In this document: positions 49,696 through 58,119 of the stretch, piece by piece
How the letters are laid out: each line of letters begins with the position of its first letter
Numbering within the stretch: position 1 is the stretch's first letter
Origin: Aureimonas jatrophae
GTDB lineage: Bacteria; Pseudomonadota; Alphaproteobacteria; Rhizobiales; Rhizobiaceae
NCBI RefSeq assembly: GCF_900104035.1
Contig: NZ_FNIT01000001.1
Span: forward strand, 310,001 to 374,000
DNA length: 64,000 nt
Direction: 5' to 3'
The notes under the pieces: generated by a model
Database searches by the model: none
Told to the model about the DNA's origin: nothing
The model's input: the letters and a program-made list of their open reading frames with translations, nothing else
Position numbers and translations under genes: made by a program

Positions 49696-50514
49696 TCAGC
49701 CGACGCCGAGGTGCTCCAGCGTGTTCACGATGGCGTCGTGACGTTCCAGGGCGAGCTCGGCTCGGATCTCGCTGATCGCCGTCTGCGTGTCGCCACCGTT
49801 CTCGACGACGCGTTCCGCGAACCGCTGCATTTCGGGACTCGGGTTGGATCCGCTGACGTTCACGGTCTCGACCTTGAAGCCCCGCGCTTCCAGTTCCGAC
49901 TGGACGCTGCCACGCAGCGACAGGGCGAGGAAGCCGAGGTCGTTGACCCGCCCGCCAGCTCTCTGCTCGTCGACCGTCAGATCGTCGACCCGCCCCTTGT
50001 CCAGATCGGTGAGCGCCATGACGGCGGAGGAGCCGGACTGCGTCAGCGCTTCGCCGAACTCCGGGTTCTTTTGGAACGTCGTATGGAGGCGCAGGAGCTG
50101 CATGTCGGACATGTTCTGGAACTCGTGCCGGAACATCTGACCCGACTCCTGGGTCATGCCGTCCCGGCCGGCGTCCAGCGTGCAATGACCATGGTCGAGC
50201 AGTTGCGACAGGGATCCGAGGACGCTCAACGTGTCCGGCTCGCGCTTCGTCATGGCATGCATCACGGCGCGCGTGGCGTCGTCCGCATTGTTGACCTGCT
50301 GCGGCTCGGGCGTGCTCACGCGCATGCCGACCAGGGGTTCGAAGAAGTGCTGCACCTCCAGCCATGCGGTCTTGAGAGCGCTGGTCGCGCGCGGCTGCGC
50401 GGGGGCTGCGGCAACGGTATGACCGTTGAACTGGCCCTGCGCGCCCCCGACAGTCTGCTGCGCGATGGTCTGGATGCTCTGCGCGCTGTGCGCGCTGCCG
50501 ATCGTATGGGACAT
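49696..50514 (-). CDS. Putative type III secretion effector
   Basis: A 272-residue protein without signal peptide or membrane helix. The first ~45 residues are Ser/Gln/Thr/Ala/Gly-rich and nearly uncharged (MSHTIGSAHSAQSIQTIAQQ), typical of type III secretion signals. The remainder is helical and acidic, with NADDATRAVMHAM, HEFQNMSDMQLLRLHTTF and a C-terminal RHDAIVNTLEHLG. The gene 11 bp upstream encodes a CesT-type chaperone, the usual partner of a secreted effector. No catalytic motif was recognised. No secretion apparatus is in the window. The chaperone is interrupted, so this effector may be decaying. Confidence 0.6.
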   Translation of the reverse strand: MSHTIGSAHSAQSIQTIAQQTVGGAQGQFNGHTVAAAPAQPRATSALKTAWLEVQHFFEPLVGMRVSTPEPQQVNNADDATRAVMHAMTKREPDTLSVLGSLSQLLDHGHCTLDAGRDGMTQESGQMFRHEFQNMSDMQLLRLHTTFQKNPEFGEALTQSGSSAVMALTDLDKGRVDDLTVDEQRAGGRVNDLGFLALSLRGSVQSELEARGFKVETVNVSGSNPSPEMQRFAERVVENGGDTQTAISEIRAELALERHDAIVNTLEHLGVG

Positions 50515-50525
50515 GGCGACCTCCC

Positions 50526-50978
50526 TCAGACGCGCATCATGGAATGGTCGGCAAAGGCTTCCTGCGACCGGCCACCCCCTGCGGAAGCACCGGACTTGAG
50601 CTTCTCGGTCCAGGCTCCGACCCGCGCGATGAAGTCCTCCAGCGCGTCCGTGAACTCGGCATACCCGAGGTGGCGCTCGTCCAATCGGCGCAGGAGCACG
50701 ACCTCGCCGAGATCGCGATCCACGGCCAGGACCGCGGCGCCCGTATCGCGACCGAACAGGTTGCTCGACAGCAGTTGCTCGTAGATCGCCTCGCGGCCGC
50801 TGGCCGGAAGAACGCCGACCGCACTGTGCAGGAATACGGTCCCGGTCTGCGCCGCCGGAGCTCCGATGTCGACGCTAACGCGGCCGTCGAAGACGAGGCG
50901 GCAGCTGCGCGTCTCGTCCACTTTCAGTGCAAGGCCCGTCTACCGGGTGAACTGCTCCAGAATCTCTTCGATACGCAT
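50526..50978 (-). pseudogene. CesT-type secretion chaperone interrupted by amber codon
   Basis: The ATG at 50978 has an excellent ribosome site (ggaggag) and starts MRIEEILEQFTR, then meets TAG (complement of 50940-50942) as codon 13. The same frame continues TGLALKVDETRSCRLVFDGRV, the normal second part of CesT-type chaperone N-termini. Then come ILYEQLLSSNLFG-like residues (YEQLLSSNLFGRDTG), VLAVDRDLGEVVLLRRLDE and FTDALEDFIARVG. Overall length with the amber codon read through would be ~150 residues, normal for the family. A GTG at 50921 could restart translation (131 residues) without the first helix. Either a pseudogene, or a shortened protein. Confidence 0.8.
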
Positions 50979-51993: not shown

Positions 51994-52947
51994 ATGACCA
52001 GCATCGCCCCCGCCCGTCGTTCGACCTCCGGTGCCCTGGCTGGCGTCGGCTTCATGCTGCTCGGCGTGTTCCTGTTCGCCAGCAACGACGCCATGGGGAA
52101 ATGGCTGGTGGGCAGCTATGCGGTCGGGCAGATCCTGCTGGTCCGTTCCATCTCGGCGCTGGCCGTGCTGGTGCCGTTCTGGCGACGCGAGGGCTGGCGC
52201 CGGTTGGTGCGCCCGCCGCGCCTGCGCCTGCAGATCGCCCGTGCGGTCTGTTCGGCGCTGGAGGTCGGGCTGTTCTATTGGGCGTTGAGCTCGATGTCGC
52301 TCGCCACCGTGATGACCTTCTATCTCGCCGGGCCGATCTACGTCACCGCGCTGGGCGCCCTGTTGCTTGGCGAGCGGGTCGGATGGGTGCGCTGGAGCGC
52401 CGTGCTCGTGGGCTTTGCCGGTGTGCTGGTCGCGCTCGGGCCGGGCATCGCCGAGGCCGGGCCCGCCGCGCTGATCGCGATCGCCGGCTCCTTCGCCTAT
52501 GCCGTGCTGATCATCACGACGCGCATTCTCGTGCCGTCGGGCGAGGTCACGCTGATCACGTGGCAAACCGCTTCGGCGCTCGTGTTCGGCCTCGTGCTGA
52601 CGCCGATCGTCGGCTGGACCCCGCCGTCCGCCTTTGACTGGATCTTCCTTCTCCTGCTCGGCCTCGTGTCGATGACCGCGCATGTCTGCGTGAACCGCTC
52701 GCTGCTGCTCGCGCCCGCCAGCACGGTCGTGCCCTACCAGTACACGCTGATCGTCTGGGCCATCATCTTCGGCGCCGTGTTCTTCGGCGAGCAGCCTACG
52801 CCGGCGCTGCTTCTGGGCGCGGTGCTGATCACGGGATCGGGTGTGTTCATCTTTCTGCGCGAGCAGCGGCTCGGCCGCGAGGCGGCCTCGGTGGCGGCCG
52901 CGCCGCCGGAGGTCGCGGTCGGGGGTGATCCGTCCGGACGGTCCTGA
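51994..52947 (+). CDS. EamA-family (DMT) transporter
   Basis: A 317-residue inner-membrane protein with ten predicted helices in two EamA repeats. First repeat: GFMLLGVFLFASNDAMGKWLV; second: ALIAIAGSFAYAVLIITTRIL and LLLGAVLITGSGVFIFLREQ. The C-terminal 30 residues are polar. Not closely similar to the other DMT protein in this window. Substrate unknown. It is separated by a hairpin from the convergent barrel gene. Confidence 0.9.
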   Translation: MTSIAPARRSTSGALAGVGFMLLGVFLFASNDAMGKWLVGSYAVGQILLVRSISALAVLVPFWRREGWRRLVRPPRLRLQIARAVCSALEVGLFYWALSSMSLATVMTFYLAGPIYVTALGALLLGERVGWVRWSAVLVGFAGVLVALGPGIAEAGPAALIAIAGSFAYAVLIITTRILVPSGEVTLITWQTASALVFGLVLTPIVGWTPPSAFDWIFLLLLGLVSMTAHVCVNRSLLLAPASTVVPYQYTLIVWAIIFGAVFFGEQPTPALLLGAVLITGSGVFIFLREQRLGREAASVAAAPPEVAVGGDPSGRS

Positions 52948-52954
52948 AACGGGC

Positions 52955-52989
52955 GCGAAGGCGGAGCCGGGCAGGGGCTCCGCCTTCGC
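52955..52989. terminator. 14-bp hairpin between convergent genes
   Basis: GCGAAGGCGGAGCC (52955-52968) pairs perfectly with GGCTCCGCCTTCGC (52976-52989) across seven bases. There is no T-run, so it may stop transcription weakly or need Rho, or serve to stabilise RNA ends. Confidence 0.6.
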
Positions 52990-53069
52990 TGGGCGGGTTC
53001 GGCAGCAGGACAGGAGCGCCGAAGCCCGCTTGCGGCGGCGCCGGCCAGGCATGGCCGGCGCGATGCGGC

Positions 53070-54314
53070 TCAGTTGAAGCGGTAGGAGACCTTGCCCCAC
53101 ACGGTGTGGAAGTCGAAGTCCTCGTCGGTGCGCGTCGTCAGCGTCGAGCCGTTGGCGAGCGGCGTGACGAAGGCGCGGTCGTCGGAGCCGAGGTCGGTGT
53201 AGAGATACTCCAGGCCGATCAGCAGATTGTCCGTGACAGCGTAGTCCGTGCCTGCGCCCACGGCATAGCCGACGCGCGTGTCGTCGTCCGAGCCCGCGGC
53301 CAGGAAGGGCGTCGCGACGAACGAGGTCTCGATCTTGCCAAAGGCGACGCCGCCCGTTCCGTAGACGAAGAAGCGGTCGAGGCCCGCGCCCGCCTTCAGG
53401 CGCACCGTCGCCAGATAGTCGAGCTCCTGGCGGATGCCGACCGTGTCGAGCCCGTCGGCAATGCCGCCGCCCTTGGTGATGTCGACATAGGACAGGTCGG
53501 CCACCGCGCCGACGACGAACGTGTTCCCACCGAGCGCGCCGAGCGCGTAGTTGTAGCCGATGTGGCCGCCGCCGGCGAAGCTGTCGTCCTCGTCGGAGTA
53601 GTTCTGGGTCGTCGGTCCGAACGTGTAGGCGTAGTTCTGATCGGGAACGCCGGGCGTGCCGGGCGTTGCGGGAACCAGCGGCGTGCCTGGCGTGGCCGGG
53701 ACTTCCGGTGTTCCGGGAACCGCGGGCGTGCCAGGGGTGCCGGGAGTGGCGGGGGTTCCTGGCGTTCCGGGCACGGCCGGCGTGACGACCACCGCGACCT
53801 CGACGGCCTGCCCGAACGTGATGGCCTGGCCGGAGGCGGCCAGCGTCCGGGACAGCTCGGCCGCCGGAACGTTCAGGCGGCTGGTGCCGTCCGGATAGAT
53901 CACGGCGCAGGAACCGGCGCCGGCCGCGCCGGCGGCTGCGGCCGTGCAGGAATATTCAAGCGTTCCGAAGACGGCCGGAATGCCGGGCGTTCCCGGTGTG
54001 GCCGGCGTTCCGGGCGTGCCCGGGATCGCCGGGGTGCCCGGCGTGGCCGGGGTGCCGGGCGTGCCCGGTGTGGCGGGGATCTCGGGCGTGCCGGGCGTGG
54101 CCGCGATGCCGGGAACGAAGACGAAGCTCGACGGAGCATTCGACGAGCCGTTGTTGAACGATCCGCCGGCCTGTCCGCCGACGTAGAGGCCGGTCCACGA
54201 GAAGGCCGGCACGAAGGCGACCGGCGGCTCGGGCGGGGGATAGTCGACGATGTCGGCGGCGAGGGCCGAACCGGCGATGGTCGAGGCGGCAAGGGCGAGG
54301 GCCAGTTTCTGCAT
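53070..54314 (-). CDS. Outer-membrane barrel with Gly/Ala-Thr-Pro triplet repeats
   Basis: A 414-residue predicted outer-membrane protein. After a signal peptide (cleavage near SALAAD) comes the barrel opener [20 protein letters not shown]. Residues 68-113 and 179-224 are two blocks of xTP triplets (GTP, ATP, with EIP, AIP, LVP variants). Between them lies a 65-residue segment with two Cys (123 and 136). Residues ~230-414 return to an Omp25-like barrel: [50 protein letters not shown], terminal VSYRFN. The blocks fall in what should be the first external loop, so they may project from the cell. Last gene of the hfa-like cluster, 152 bp downstream of the HfaD-like gene. Confidence 0.85.
53643..53780 (-). 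repeat. Second xTP triplet-repeat block
   Basis: Codes residues 179-224 of the barrel protein: runs of PGTP and PATP triplets with AVP, EVP and LVP variants. The DNA is a degenerate array of roughly nine-base units; the complementary strand reads as GVPGVAG-like sequence, which is not a gene. Confidence 0.8.
53976..54113 (-). repeat. First xTP triplet-repeat block
   Basis: Codes residues 68-113 of the same protein, again GTP/ATP triplets with EIP, AIP and GIP variants. Exactly the same length as the second block (46 residues), which suggests duplication or selection for length. Confidence 0.8.
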
Positions 54315-54466
54315 GGCGTCGGCTCCAGGGTTCGAGGTCTGCCCGACGTCGTGGCGAAGCGTCGGCTTGAGGGCGTGCGGAAGCCGCCGCCGAAGGGCGG
54401 GTCGAGGGCGGCGACGATGACCGGTGGAAGGGGACGGGCCCTCGGCCCGCCCCCGACCTGTCTGCC

Positions 54467-55288
54467 TTACTCCGGCAGGTTGAGCGCCGAGCCGTCGAAG
54501 CCCAGCGAGATCGTGCCGGTGTTGACGGCGCCGACGACCGTCGTACCGATGCCGGCGAGGTCCATGTTGTTGGCGACCGCGGTGACCGAGCCGAGGATCG
54601 TGCCACCGTTGAACGCGCGGTTCGCGGCATAGACGTCGGCCAGCGGGCCGGACGACAGGGCCTCGGTCGCGGCCGTGATCGTCGTGGACGGACCCTGGAA
54701 GTCCACCGAGTTCACCGAGCTCGCCGCGGAGGACGAGGCGGTGTTGGTCGTGCTGGCGGCCGAGGACGCGCTGCCCGAGATGGTCGTGGCGAGGCTGCCC
54801 GTGCTGGCGGTCGTGCTGTTGCTGGCGCGCAGGGCGCTGTTCTGCACGGCGCTCGCGATGTCGCCCGTGTTCACCGCGCCGACGACGACGGTCTCGATCG
54901 CGGCCGAGCTGGCGATCTCGCCGGCGGTCGCCGCACGGGTCGCCACCGAGCCGAGGTCGATGCCGAGGCCGACTTCCGCCGCGCCCGACAGCGAGAGAAG
55001 CGGCGGCAGGACGCTGATGGCGCCCGACGCGGCACCCTGGACGCCGACGTTGATCGCGCCGAGATCGACCTCGGTCGCGGTGTCCAGACCGGCCTGGCCG
55101 AGCGTCACCGCACCGTTGATGGTGCCGATGTTGATCGAGTCGTTGACCCAGTTGCCGTTTGCGAACGTCGCCTGCAGACCGACGAGATTGTCGCCGATCA
55201 CCGCGCCGAGCGACTGCGCCTGAGCGCCGCCGATCGAAGCCAGACCCATGACCAGCGCCGAGGCGCCGATTGTGAAGAGGGACTTCAT
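54467..55288 (-). CDS. Secreted repeat protein, HfaD-like candidate
   Basis: A 273-residue secreted protein with signal peptide (cleavage after GAQAQ). The mature protein is rich in Ala, Ser, Thr, Val and Gly, almost without Lys or aromatic residues. A GxxNxG motif recurs: IGTING (54-59), LGAINVG (76-82), and VGAVNTG twice (136-142 and 252-258), separated by a Ser/Thr/Ala linker around 150-195. This looks like a beta-rich fibre or adhesin. Position downstream of hfaB fits HfaD, the outer-membrane holdfast anchor partner, but identity is not proven. Confidence 0.6.
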   Translation of the reverse strand: MKSLFTIGASALVMGLASIGGAQAQSLGAVIGDNLVGLQATFANGNWVNDSINIGTINGAVTLGQAGLDTATEVDLGAINVGVQGAASGAISVLPPLLSLSGAAEVGLGIDLGSVATRAATAGEIASSAAIETVVVGAVNTGDIASAVQNSALRASNSTTASTGSLATTISGSASSAASTTNTASSSAASSVNSVDFQGPSTTITAATEALSSGPLADVYAANRAFNGGTILGSVTAVANNMDLAGIGTTVVGAVNTGTISLGFDGSALNLPE

Positions 55289-55414
55289 TTGTTAACTCCA
55301 GCTCGTTGCCTGGGGTTTGCCGGCTCCCTGTCGGCGGTCCCCTTGGGTTGGACAGGTCGTTCACGAGAGCCCTGTCGATCGGCGGAGCGGTTCCAGCGCT
55401 CCGCCGAATTTCCG

Positions 55415-56506
55415 TCATTGCGTCAGGATGGCCTGCGCCTTGGCCTGATCGCTGAGTTCGGTTTCCGCCTTGCCGCCGCCAGCACCCGGGAAGGCGCCGC
55501 TCGACCCGGCATAGGGTTTCTCGGTGCGCACGGCGGCCGGCGTCGTGGCGGGCGCGGCAGCCTTCACACCCATCTGCACGCCCGGCAGCGCGGCGGGCGT
55601 GGGGCCGGCGGCCGGCGCGGGCTTGGCGCCGGGCGGCTGCGCGCCGACGGCACGCGCGGCGCTCTTCGCCTTTTCCAGAGCCGCCACGGCCTCGGCCGTC
55701 TTGGTGTGGTCGATGTAGCCGTGCGCCCGATCCACGAAGCTGCGGCACTCCGCGAAGTTCTCGGCCTTCATGACCTGCGTCAGCAGCTCGAAGGTCGCGA
55801 GGTTCAGCATCTGCCGGAGCGCGAAGTGGATCGCCTCGCGCTCGCGCCCGCCGAAGTCGACATTGGTCAGCTGGTCGCCGATGAAGCGCCCGACGCCAAT
55901 GCCGGCTTCCGACGAGAAGATCTGCTTCTGGAGCGGGACGTTCGCGACGATCAGGCCGCTGTTGGCGTCGGTCATCGCAAGATCGAGCCCGATCAGGATG
56001 CGGTTCTGCCGGTAGCGCGCACCGATGCCGGCGACCTCGACCTCCGCTCCCGAGCCGGGAATGAAGTCCAGCGAGTTGATCGAGCCCGTGATGTAGAAGT
56101 TCGACGGGATCTGCCGCGACAGGTCGCGCACGCGCCACTCGGCCTCCGTGGTCGCCACGCGCGGATCGCGGCGGTTCACCACGGTCGCGCCCGCCCGGAA
56201 CAGGGCGGACTGGATCATGTCGCCCGCGCCCTGACTGACGAACTTGCCGACGCCACCGTCCGTGAAGCTCTCCTTGCCGGTCTGGTCCAGCACCGCGCCG
56301 ACCGAGAAGACGAGCTGGCGCGCGATGCGCCCGTTCAGGCAGATCAGCGCCTTGTCGAAGGGCGTGACGATGTCGCTGATCGGCGGACCCTGGACCAGCT
56401 TGGCGTTGCTGGTCGAGCTCGCCACGCCCGGCGCGGCGGCGCAGCCGAACAGCGAGGCGGCCGACAGAATGGCCGCAAGCGTGCGCGCAAGGGGGCGAAG
56501 ACGCAT
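55415..56506 (-). CDS. hfaB: CsgG/HfaB-family lipoprotein
   Basis: A 363-residue lipoprotein (lipobox LFGC, Cys22) of the CsgG/HfaB family. CsgG forms the curli export pore; HfaB in Caulobacter secretes HfaA and HfaD to anchor the holdfast. Family segments visible are VTPFDKALICLNGRIA, GAGDMIQSALFRAGATVVNR, NFYITGSINSLDFIPGSG, RYRQNRILIGLDLAMTDANSG, IGRFIGD-like GVGRFIGDQLTN and AIHFALRQMLNLATFELL. A Pro/Ala-rich C-terminal extension of ~80 residues follows. Ten bases after hfaA, so probably one operon. Confidence 0.85.
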   Translation of the reverse strand: MRLRPLARTLAAILSAASLFGCAAAPGVASSTSNAKLVQGPPISDIVTPFDKALICLNGRIARQLVFSVGAVLDQTGKESFTDGGVGKFVSQGAGDMIQSALFRAGATVVNRRDPRVATTEAEWRVRDLSRQIPSNFYITGSINSLDFIPGSGAEVEVAGIGARYRQNRILIGLDLAMTDANSGLIVANVPLQKQIFSSEAGIGVGRFIGDQLTNVDFGGREREAIHFALRQMLNLATFELLTQVMKAENFAECRSFVDRAHGYIDHTKTAEAVAALEKAKSAARAVGAQPPGAKPAPAAGPTPAALPGVQMGVKAAAPATTPAAVRTEKPYAGSSGAFPGAGGGKAETELSDQAKAQAILTQ

Positions 56507-56516
56507 GACGCCTCGC

Positions 56517-56969
56517 TCAGTTGCAGGTGGGCTGACCGCCGGGCAAGGTCGCGTCGATCGAGACGCGTCCGTCCTGGCAACCGTGCGATTGGGCCTCGTT
56601 GCTGGTTGCGACGTTGATGTTGCCGCGGCCCGAGATATCGATGTTGTTGGTGGAGTTGTTCACGGCGCCGATCGCCGTGGTCTGCTGCCCGATCTCGTTC
56701 CGCTCGTTGTTGGTCTGCGTGCCGATCTCGTCGCCGTAGTGCACATTGTTGAACGAGGTGATCTGCGTCTTGCCGAGCGACTCGTAGTAGCCCTCCTCGT
56801 TTTTGCGCAGGACATCGGTCTGCAGGAGGCGCAGGTTCTTGTCGGCGGTCGAGGCGAAGCCGTAGTTGCCGTTCCAGTCCGACTGGGGGCTGACGGTGCT
56901 TTGCGCCCAGGCTGCAGGCGCACACAAGAGCACGGCGAGCACGCCCGCCGCCTGGCATGGTCTGATCAT
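56517..56969 (-). CDS. hfaA: HfaA-like secreted fibre protein
   Basis: A 150-residue secreted protein with signal peptide (cleavage near AWAQ). The mature part is Asn/Gln/Thr/Ser-rich with curlin-like character: TSFNNVHYGDEIGTQTNNE, IGQQTTAIGAVNNSTNN, and DISGRGNINVATSNEAQSH, then a Cys pair near the end (GCQDG, PTCN). In Caulobacter HfaA is the small polymerising protein exported by HfaB. Gene order hfaA-hfaB-hfaD is the same here. Upstream are two dyads that may be operators. Confidence 0.72.
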   Translation of the reverse strand: MIRPCQAAGVLAVLLCAPAAWAQSTVSPQSDWNGNYGFASTADKNLRLLQTDVLRKNEEGYYESLGKTQITSFNNVHYGDEIGTQTNNERNEIGQQTTAIGAVNNSTNNIDISGRGNINVATSNEAQSHGCQDGRVSIDATLPGGQPTCN

Positions 56970-57267
56970 GTCGGTTCCCCCTGCGGTCGTGCTGTCGCCC
57001 GCCGATACGCTGCCGGCGACCCATGGAGCCGCGTGACGGAAACGACCTCGCCGAAAGGTCGAACGCCCCGTCGCCGATCATATGCCCACACCCGGCCCGA
57101 TCGTCGCAACTCATAATTGCGCGAATGGTTGACGTCGCAACCAAACTGTTGCCACCTCAACACAACCATGGCGCGCGTACAACAGCGAGGGAACGGCAGC
57201 GCCGTTCTCCCCGCGTCTCCAGCCTCGCGTATGCTTCGCCGTCGCAACGGATGGACCAGGACGCGCC
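56970..57267. promoter_or_regulatory. Divergent hfaA / DUF2793 regulatory region
   Basis: A 298-bp divergent gap. It holds two GTTG-N6-CAAC dyads 20 bp apart (57128-57161) and an AT-rich spot (CATAATTGC near 57112-57120) that may be a -10 element for the hfaA side. No TTAA-N7-TTAA CtrA site was found. Confidence 0.45.
57128..57161. promoter_or_regulatory. Tandem GTTG-N6-CAAC dyads
   Basis: GTTG-ACGTCG-CAAC at 57128-57141 and GTTG-CCACCT-CAAC at 57148-57161. Their starts are exactly 20 bp apart, two helical turns, so a regulator could bind both on one DNA face. Position is about 160-190 bp upstream of hfaA. The regulator is unknown. Confidence 0.45.
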
Positions 57268-58119
57268 ATGGACGAGACACCCCGACTGAACCTGCCCTTT
57301 CTGCTGGCCCAGCAGGCGCAGAAGCATCTGACCCACAACGAGGCGCTACGTCTTCTGGACGTCCTTGTGCAAACGGCCGTGCACTCGATGCGTACGGCCG
57401 CCGAGCCGGACGCCGCCGAAGAGGGCGACCTCTTCATTCTGCCGCCCGACCGCACCGGCGCCCGCTGGGAAGAGATGGCACCCGGCTCGCTCGCGCTGTT
57501 CGAGAACGGTGGCTTCGTCGCCATCCGCCCCGTGCTCGGTCAGGTTGCATACGTGCTCGACGAGCGCCGTCTTGTGATCTTCGACGGTGCAACCTGGAGC
57601 GGCGACGCCTTCGCGGCGCGCGACCTGCCGAGCCTCGGCATCAACGCCGCGCCGTCCTCCGCCAACCGCCTGACCGTCGCGACCGACGTTGAGCTGCTGA
57701 CCCACGACGACCGAACGCCCGGAACCGGGGATGCCCGCAAGGTCGTCAATAAGGCGGCGAGCGCGCGCACCGCCTCGCTCGTGTTCCAGACCGCTTGGTC
57801 GGGGCGCGCGGAGCTGGGCCTGACCGGCGACGACGACCTGCAGTTCCGCGTCTCGGCCGACGGCGCGAGCTTTCGCACCGCGTTGCGCGCCGCGCGTGCG
57901 AGCGGCTTCGTGGCATTGGCGGGTGGGCACGAGCCGGCCTGCGCGCTGGACGTCGCGGGACCTGTCAGGGTCGGCGCCTATGCGCGCGCCGCGCTTCCCT
58001 CCGCCGCGAGTGGCGCCGGGCAGGTGATCTTCGTGCCGGACGAGGCGGGCGGCGCGACGCTCGCCTTTTCGGACGGCACGCGCTGGCGACGCGTCGGCGA
58101 CCGCGCCGTGGTCGCTTGA
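57268..58119 (+). CDS. DUF2793-domain protein
   Basis: A 283-residue protein with the DUF2793 domain at its start (TPRLNLPFLLAQQAQKHLTHNEAL, AAEEGDLFILPPDRTGARWEE). This domain is common in alphaproteobacterial phage and gene-transfer-agent tail genes. The C-terminal part (GDARKVVNKAASARTASLVFQ to ALRAARASGFVALAGG) looks like a phage tail fibre beta-structure. No other phage gene is nearby, so it is probably a chromosomal relic or a domesticated surface protein. No signal peptide. Confidence 0.82.
   Translation: MDETPRLNLPFLLAQQAQKHLTHNEALRLLDVLVQTAVHSMRTAAEPDAAEEGDLFILPPDRTGARWEEMAPGSLALFENGGFVAIRPVLGQVAYVLDERRLVIFDGATWSGDAFAARDLPSLGINAAPSSANRLTVATDVELLTHDDRTPGTGDARKVVNKAASARTASLVFQTAWSGRAELGLTGDDDLQFRVSADGASFRTALRAARASGFVALAGGHEPACALDVAGPVRVGAYARAALPSAASGAGQVIFVPDEAGGATLAFSDGTRWRRVGDRAVVA

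Follow-up and report, generated by a model that had tools for sequence, protein, structure and literature searches.

A CsgG/HfaB-family gene cluster of Aureimonas jatrophae: a candidate surface-export unit akin to the holdfast anchor genes

The locus and its four genes

A stretch of 64,000 nucleotides (nt) of the Aureimonas jatrophae genome (assembly GCF_900104035.1, contig NZ_FNIT01000001.1, positions 310,001 to 374,000), hereafter the window, carries at 53070-56969 of its minus strand four neighboring genes, designated here A, B, D, and O (Table 1). B encodes a CsgG/HfaB-family lipoprotein, and the order A-B-D is the counterpart of the hfaA-hfaB-hfaD order of Caulobacter. A first-pass annotation, made from the letters alone, had located the same four genes and noted this order, and both observations hold. 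The genes are spaced 10 nt (A-B), 126 nt (B-D), and 152 nt (D-O) apart. The set is not a chance association, for 10 of the 21 Aureimonas genomes have all four genes, in two cases divided between two contigs.

Table 1. Features of the A-B-D-O locus (window coordinates)
Feature	Position	Strand	Description
Gene A	56517..56969	-	150 aa (amino acids); secreted Asn-rich protein, signal peptide by eye
Gene B	55415..56506	-	363 aa; CsgG/HfaB-family lipoprotein, predicted outer-membrane export pore
Gene D	54467..55288	-	273 aa; secreted repeat protein, signal peptide by eye
Gene O	53070..54314	-	414 aa; Omp25/OmpA-type outer-membrane barrel, 189-residue insert between first two strands
B-D intercistronic leader	55289..55414	-	Conserved hairpins GGCGGAGCG/CGCTCCGCC and GACAGG/CCTGTC
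Palindrome CGCAATTATGAGTTGCG upstream of A	57105..57121	-	Conserved; candidate operator

The designation of B as a CsgG/HfaB lipoprotein is supported by its match to the Pfam CsgG family (PF03783; E 6.5e-12, 45.6 bits against a gathering score of 20.8) and by a lipobox, SLFGC, recognized by eye. Its C-terminal tail is Ala/Pro-rich and terminates in AKAQAIL-TQ. B is the sole CsgG-family match found in the genome, and from its family it is predicted to form an oligomeric pore in the outer membrane.

A has no family match in Pfam or NCBIfam, D rises over no cut-off in either collection (its only match, to DUF378, is below threshold), and neither matches the Pfam curlin family. A combines a conserved N-terminal segment (W..Y.F, a helix, and YY...GkT) with a single unit of the form T.IGavN.sT..I.i.G..N. 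In the consensus of 57 A proteins, W32 and G101 are invariant and C149 is retained in at least 90%; among the 12 nearest relatives both Cys 131 and Cys 149 are kept. In the AlphaFold model of A, a single helix of the mature protein, at residues 41-58, is confident, and disorder follows it.

D consists of two units, for which 52 proteins yield the consensus NxAxNxGxIDASV...TTAxGAVNTGxI with N53, G137, N227, and G253 (window numbering) invariant. The Gly-Val-Asn repeat attributed to this protein in the first pass is present, the actual motif being GAVNT, which occurs twice, starting at residues 133 and 249. When 70 of 75 D proteins were counted (leaving out the window, one further locus, L021, and three proteins cut by contig ends), 57 contained the strict GAVNT motif at least twice, against 0.15 expected from shuffles. 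The half-unit of the NxGxIDASV type averaged 1.44 per protein against 0.03 expected, with one match, at residue 53, in the D of the window. AlphaFold models a strand-turn-strand at every half-unit of D (predicted local distance difference test scores of about 61-81 by block). A and D have the T.IGavNT unit in common, as seen in an hhalign alignment of 24 columns (score 36.6 versus a decoy maximum of 11.9).

O matches the OMP_b-brl barrel family (PF13505; 9.4e-12, 45.9 bits against a gathering score of 28.7). The insert runs between the first strand (residue 54) and the second (244) and contains 22 TP dipeptides; two Pro-Thr arms, which are the two xTP-repeat blocks remarked on earlier (residues 70-113 and 175-224), lie on either side of a small module bearing Cys 123 and Cys 136. 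By the topology usual for OMP_b-brl proteins, the insert would be an outside loop. Among the other barrels read in the same genome, three paralogues have about 20 (counted by eye), 35, and 50 residues at the insert site, and a fourth is more distant.

Distribution and kinship of the A-B-D module

Ten aligned B proteins, used together as the query of a search, found 84 relatives. The best 80 of the 84 comprise 8 from Aureimonas, 1 from Nitratireductor, 1 from Pararhizobium, 30 from Rhodobacterales, 30 from Moraxellaceae (29 of them Acinetobacter), 4 from Betaproteobacteria, 1 from Desulforhopalus, 2 from Nitrospinaceae, and 3 others; the tally is of loci, some genomes supply two, and several are metagenome-assembled genomes. 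The window and one plasmid of Pacificitalea bring the total to 82 loci. The A profile places an A gene near B in all 82, directly upstream in 81 and just downstream in Desulforhopalus, and in 81 of the 82 the end of A falls between -129 and +15 nt from the start of the B match. The D profile detects D downstream of B in 75 of the 76 testable loci; of the seven loci that lack it, six are on contigs that stop at most 133 nt past B, and one, a Nitrospinaceae metagenome-assembled genome, has 1.8 kb beyond B and no D. As both profiles were iterated under a position limit near B and neighbors passing E 1e-3 were counted, these figures describe neighbors of B rather than a blind discovery. A search of plasmids gave no match with D and only Pacificitalea with A. 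On plasmids of Vibrio and Photobacterium, small genes without names come after a CsgG/HfaB gene, which makes up a further CsgG-type unit that is uncharacterised. Literature searches confined to open PubMed Central papers, and so missing most subscription papers, listed no description of this A-B-D operon.

The first-pass annotation had likened A-B-D to the holdfast anchor genes and had proposed checking the proteins against HfaA, HfaB, and HfaD profiles. B does match the NCBIfam HfaB equivalog model (NF037935) with E 9e-27, but its 93.9 bits are far below the 300-bit cut-off, which 19 of 385 genomes of the class pass, as does the Caulobacter control. With the proteins passing this cut-off in the 385 genomes, presumably from Caulobacterales, as the HfaB comparison set, a tree of 69 B-type proteins was built by a quick method, with long branches flagged; 32 were picked from the 82 A-B-D loci, and the rows L051, L058, and two from L092 were dropped. 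The A-B-D proteins form one group (support 99) and 17 cut-off-passing HfaB proteins another (99), with other HfaB-like groups and Escherichia coli CsgG placed outside both. B thus falls in a clade shared with Rhodobacterales, Acinetobacter, and others, away from the cut-off-passing HfaB proteins, an outcome that the earlier annotation had itself named as speaking against holdfast identity. The alternative wording of that annotation, an extended or different surface-fibre export system, fits in both respects: the family differs, and a lineage-specific barrel gene extends the locus.

Two other Aureimonas genomes encode a different B-type protein, B', which groups in the same tree with Variovorax and four alphaproteobacterial loci (support 98). 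The A-position proteins at such B'/Variovorax-type loci match the A profile at E 2e-5 to 1.7. On the Variovorax plasmid (locus L025, 7505-14185), the HfaB-like gene is accompanied by a small upstream gene and by a 1,566-aa protein annotated as S-layer family, and EAL-domain genes flank the locus on both sides. At several alphaproteobacterial loci (L087-L092), the partners of an HfaB-like gene are Asn-rich proteins with TAVGNN..I.V at their end, and LuxR-type regulators were noted nearby by eye.

Possible traces of kinship with HfaA and HfaD are found in the partner proteins. In a set of 3,782 open frames taken from HfaB-type loci, the top matches of the A profile are mostly A-position genes; in the reverse direction, 9 of the best 11 matches of the HfaA profile among 6,647 frames are A genes, with only one at E below 0.05. 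Mature D and mature HfaD align by hhalign over 44 columns at both C-termini, in register, with a score of 22.9 versus a decoy maximum of 11.6. An initial D-HfaD match at 91.6% probability was dropped, having fallen to 1.1% after the signal peptides were removed, and for this reason the C-terminal register alone is used. The HfaD profile did not single out D genes, and HfaD and D profiles run against the opposite sets gave mixed matches that were not used as evidence. These comparisons are suggestive of distant kinship between A and HfaA and between D and HfaD. Given the weak profile matches of A to HfaA and of the last unit of D to the end of HfaD, A-B-D is, as judged from sequence, a sister family of hfaABD and not hfaABD itself.

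The Aureimonas cassette, its barrel gene, and candidate control elements

In Aureimonas the four genes are present or absent as a block, whose usual site is between an EamA gene and a DUF2793 gene. This slot was scored in 15 of the 21 genomes, leaving out five without a DUF2793 match and one with only a 44% match. The flanking genes are directly adjacent, and the slot empty, in three genomes. The whole of A-B-D-O occupies it in five genomes, that of the window included, and in two more it does so spread over two contigs, giving seven filled slots in all. In two genomes A adjoins DUF2793 and EamA was not found in the stretch read, and in one the cassette resides at another site. The two genomes with B' have in the EamA-DUF2793 gap, in opposite orientation, an A'-B' pair with a giant D' that measures about 1,280 aa (L186 2235-7957; L187 1925-6908). 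The presence or absence of the block including its barrel is the best evidence for O as part of the unit.

The association of O with the cassette is close within one order. In each of the 9 Hyphomicrobiales loci where this is testable, from three families, D is followed by a barrel (two further loci end inside B), versus 0 of 71 loci outside Hyphomicrobiales, 58 of which extend at least 1 kb beyond D. Cluster-type barrels, of at least 56% identity, occur in exactly those 10 of the 21 genus genomes that have B, and the other 11 contain only barrel paralogues of at most 51% identity. The two Cys residues of the insert are kept in every one of the 11 barrels aligned, ten from Aureimonas and one from Pararhizobium, the last with arms that are acidic instead of Pro-Thr-rich, and both are likewise present in the Nitratireductor barrel, whose insert is shorter. 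O is a Hyphomicrobiales extension and looks like a later addition to A-B-D.

Two noncoding elements accompany the genes. The B-D leader is 116-136 nt long and conserved across nine Aureimonas; of the cells that make up its two hairpins, 98.7% are paired, versus at most 42.5% when slid. Two-sided changes are confined to two adjacent pairs, which may be one event, and their count is not above that of shuffles, 337 of 500 of which reach it. A possible long-range pairing in the leader was dropped because 4 of 9 sequences break one of its pairs. Rfam gave no match over window positions 52500-57600. Upstream of A, the palindrome keeps the form GCA..T....GTTGC in 10 of 10 aligned Aureimonas genomes, save one letter in two, and a related pattern occurs three times in the genome, counting this copy.

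Elsewhere in the window, a CesT-family type III secretion chaperone (2.7e-13; 50526-50921, minus strand) adjoins a 272-aa protein without a Pfam match (49696-50514, minus strand), possibly a chaperone-and-substrate pair.

A candidate export unit and its alternatives

We consider A-B-D to be a self-contained secretion unit of the CsgG superfamily that would export A and D into a surface anchor or fibre, with O added in Hyphomicrobiales as a docking or spacing partner, and we assign this explanation a probability of roughly 0.6. B would serve as the outer-membrane lipoprotein pore. The path of A and D would lead through the Sec system and then, in unfolded form, through B, and outside the cell they would assemble into a beta-rich anchor or fibre. 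D may then be the two-unit structural piece and A its short single-unit partner, acting as cap, nucleator, or anchor. The Pro-Thr arms of O could hold the small module, whose two Cys may form a disulfide, away from the surface, where it would dock or space the A/D material. A role for A-B-D in adhesion is plausible.

The nearest parallel is Caulobacter, where HfaB is the presumed exporter of HfaA and HfaD (PMC6707917). Both systems have the same gene order, a CsgG-family pore, and two secreted partners with a TAIGn/GAVN-type unit, and the HfaD C-terminus aligns in register, at a weak score, with the last unit of D. What sets A apart from HfaA is a distinct conserved segment at the N-terminus, together with a C-terminal Cys in the majority of members, and the barrel added in Hyphomicrobiales is a further difference. 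An operon of three hypothetical lipoproteins, one CsgG-like, is reported for island G19 of Acinetobacter baumannii (PMC3224125). Compared by description only, it is likewise a three-gene CsgG-family operon in Acinetobacter, but its products are three lipoproteins whereas A and D look to have ordinary signal peptides.

Several results weigh against the proposed unit. Cut-off-passing loci supply 13 HfaA proteins, of which the A profile reaches just two, with E 0.04 and 0.42. By hhalign, A and HfaA align with a score of 16.7 and a probability of 4% (column-shuffled decoys reach 12.7 and 0.2%), and the probabilities for mature D are about 1% with HfaD and 0.3% with HfaA. The mean AlphaFold confidence is low (56.3 for D, 62.4 for A), and searches of the PDB with the D model gave no match. 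The D-O spacing ranges from 87 to 828 nt across eight genomes, so that A-B-D-O is not necessarily a single transcript in every genome; with gaps above 600 nt in two of the eight and GC-rich hairpins predicted 3' of D, O may be transcribed separately. Finally, the genome has no match to CsgE or CsgF, a gap that also bears on one of the competing explanations.

The spacing and hairpins feed directly into the view that A-B-D functions alone and O is an unrelated Omp25-type porin that moved in alongside. This is consistent with the absence of a barrel from the 71 loci outside Hyphomicrobiales, 58 of them with 1 kb or more past D, and with the frequency of Omp25-like paralogues in the genus. O shares its barrel domain and the C-terminal strand typical of the family with Omp25/OmpA-like proteins, and its 189-residue insert with arms and two-Cys module sets it apart from them. 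Against a bystander barrel, O follows D in every testable Hyphomicrobiales locus of three families, retains its Cys pair in all 11 aligned barrels and in Nitratireductor, and is gained or lost together with the cassette; we regard this view as unlikely. It is considerably less probable that the cluster is a true hfaABD ortholog anchoring a polar polysaccharide, to which the barrel would contribute one more anchor component. The shared gene order, the HfaB model match, the weak A and D profile links, and four Poly_export (polysaccharide-export) proteins in the genome all point that way, but none of the four lies on the contig of the window, B falls short of the HfaB cut-off and outside the clade of proteins passing it, and the loci are, among the best 80 of 84, mainly from Acinetobacter and Rhodobacterales. 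Orthology to the holdfast genes is thus disfavored by cut-off and tree.

Export by B of curlin-repeat proteins encoded elsewhere in the genome, in the manner of E. coli curli, appears slightly more improbable still. Curli CsgG likewise has the CsgG domain and serves short, Asn/Gly-rich secreted proteins (CsgA/B) that may pass unfolded, and the genome combines curlin-repeat matches on another contig, C10, with the lack of a second CsgG match. Yet CsgE and CsgF have no match in the genome, B is far from solved CsgG (phmmer E 0.014), its constant neighbors are A and D, and curlin repeats occur in 4 of 10 genomes with the cluster versus 4 of 11 without it, three of the latter lacking any B match, a co-occurrence result after which the curlin hypothesis was disfavored. 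The curlin-repeat matches of this genome (C10:298493-299674, locus L185) belong to a set found in 8 of 21 genus genomes and unlinked to the cluster.

The export unit proposed here can be set against the family at large. Dueholm et al. (2012) give 171/601 for the Pfam CsgG model and treat unspecific hits as likely paralogs of a larger family (PMC3521004). As a tentative extension, A-B-D could be a widespread but so far unrecognised kind of surface fibre or anchor that is CsgG-exported, has members in three phyla, is common in both Acinetobacter and Rhodobacterales, and forms an exchangeable cassette whose slot in Aureimonas is empty or alternatively filled, and which in Hyphomicrobiales acquired a dedicated docking barrel with Pro-Thr arms. 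CsgG-family proteins outside curli are numerous and little explained, and one large non-curli group now has fixed partners and a testable role. A-B-D hints at a connection of curli with holdfast-anchor systems, and Aureimonas strains whose slot is empty, filled, or swapped offer a natural comparison for surface attachment.

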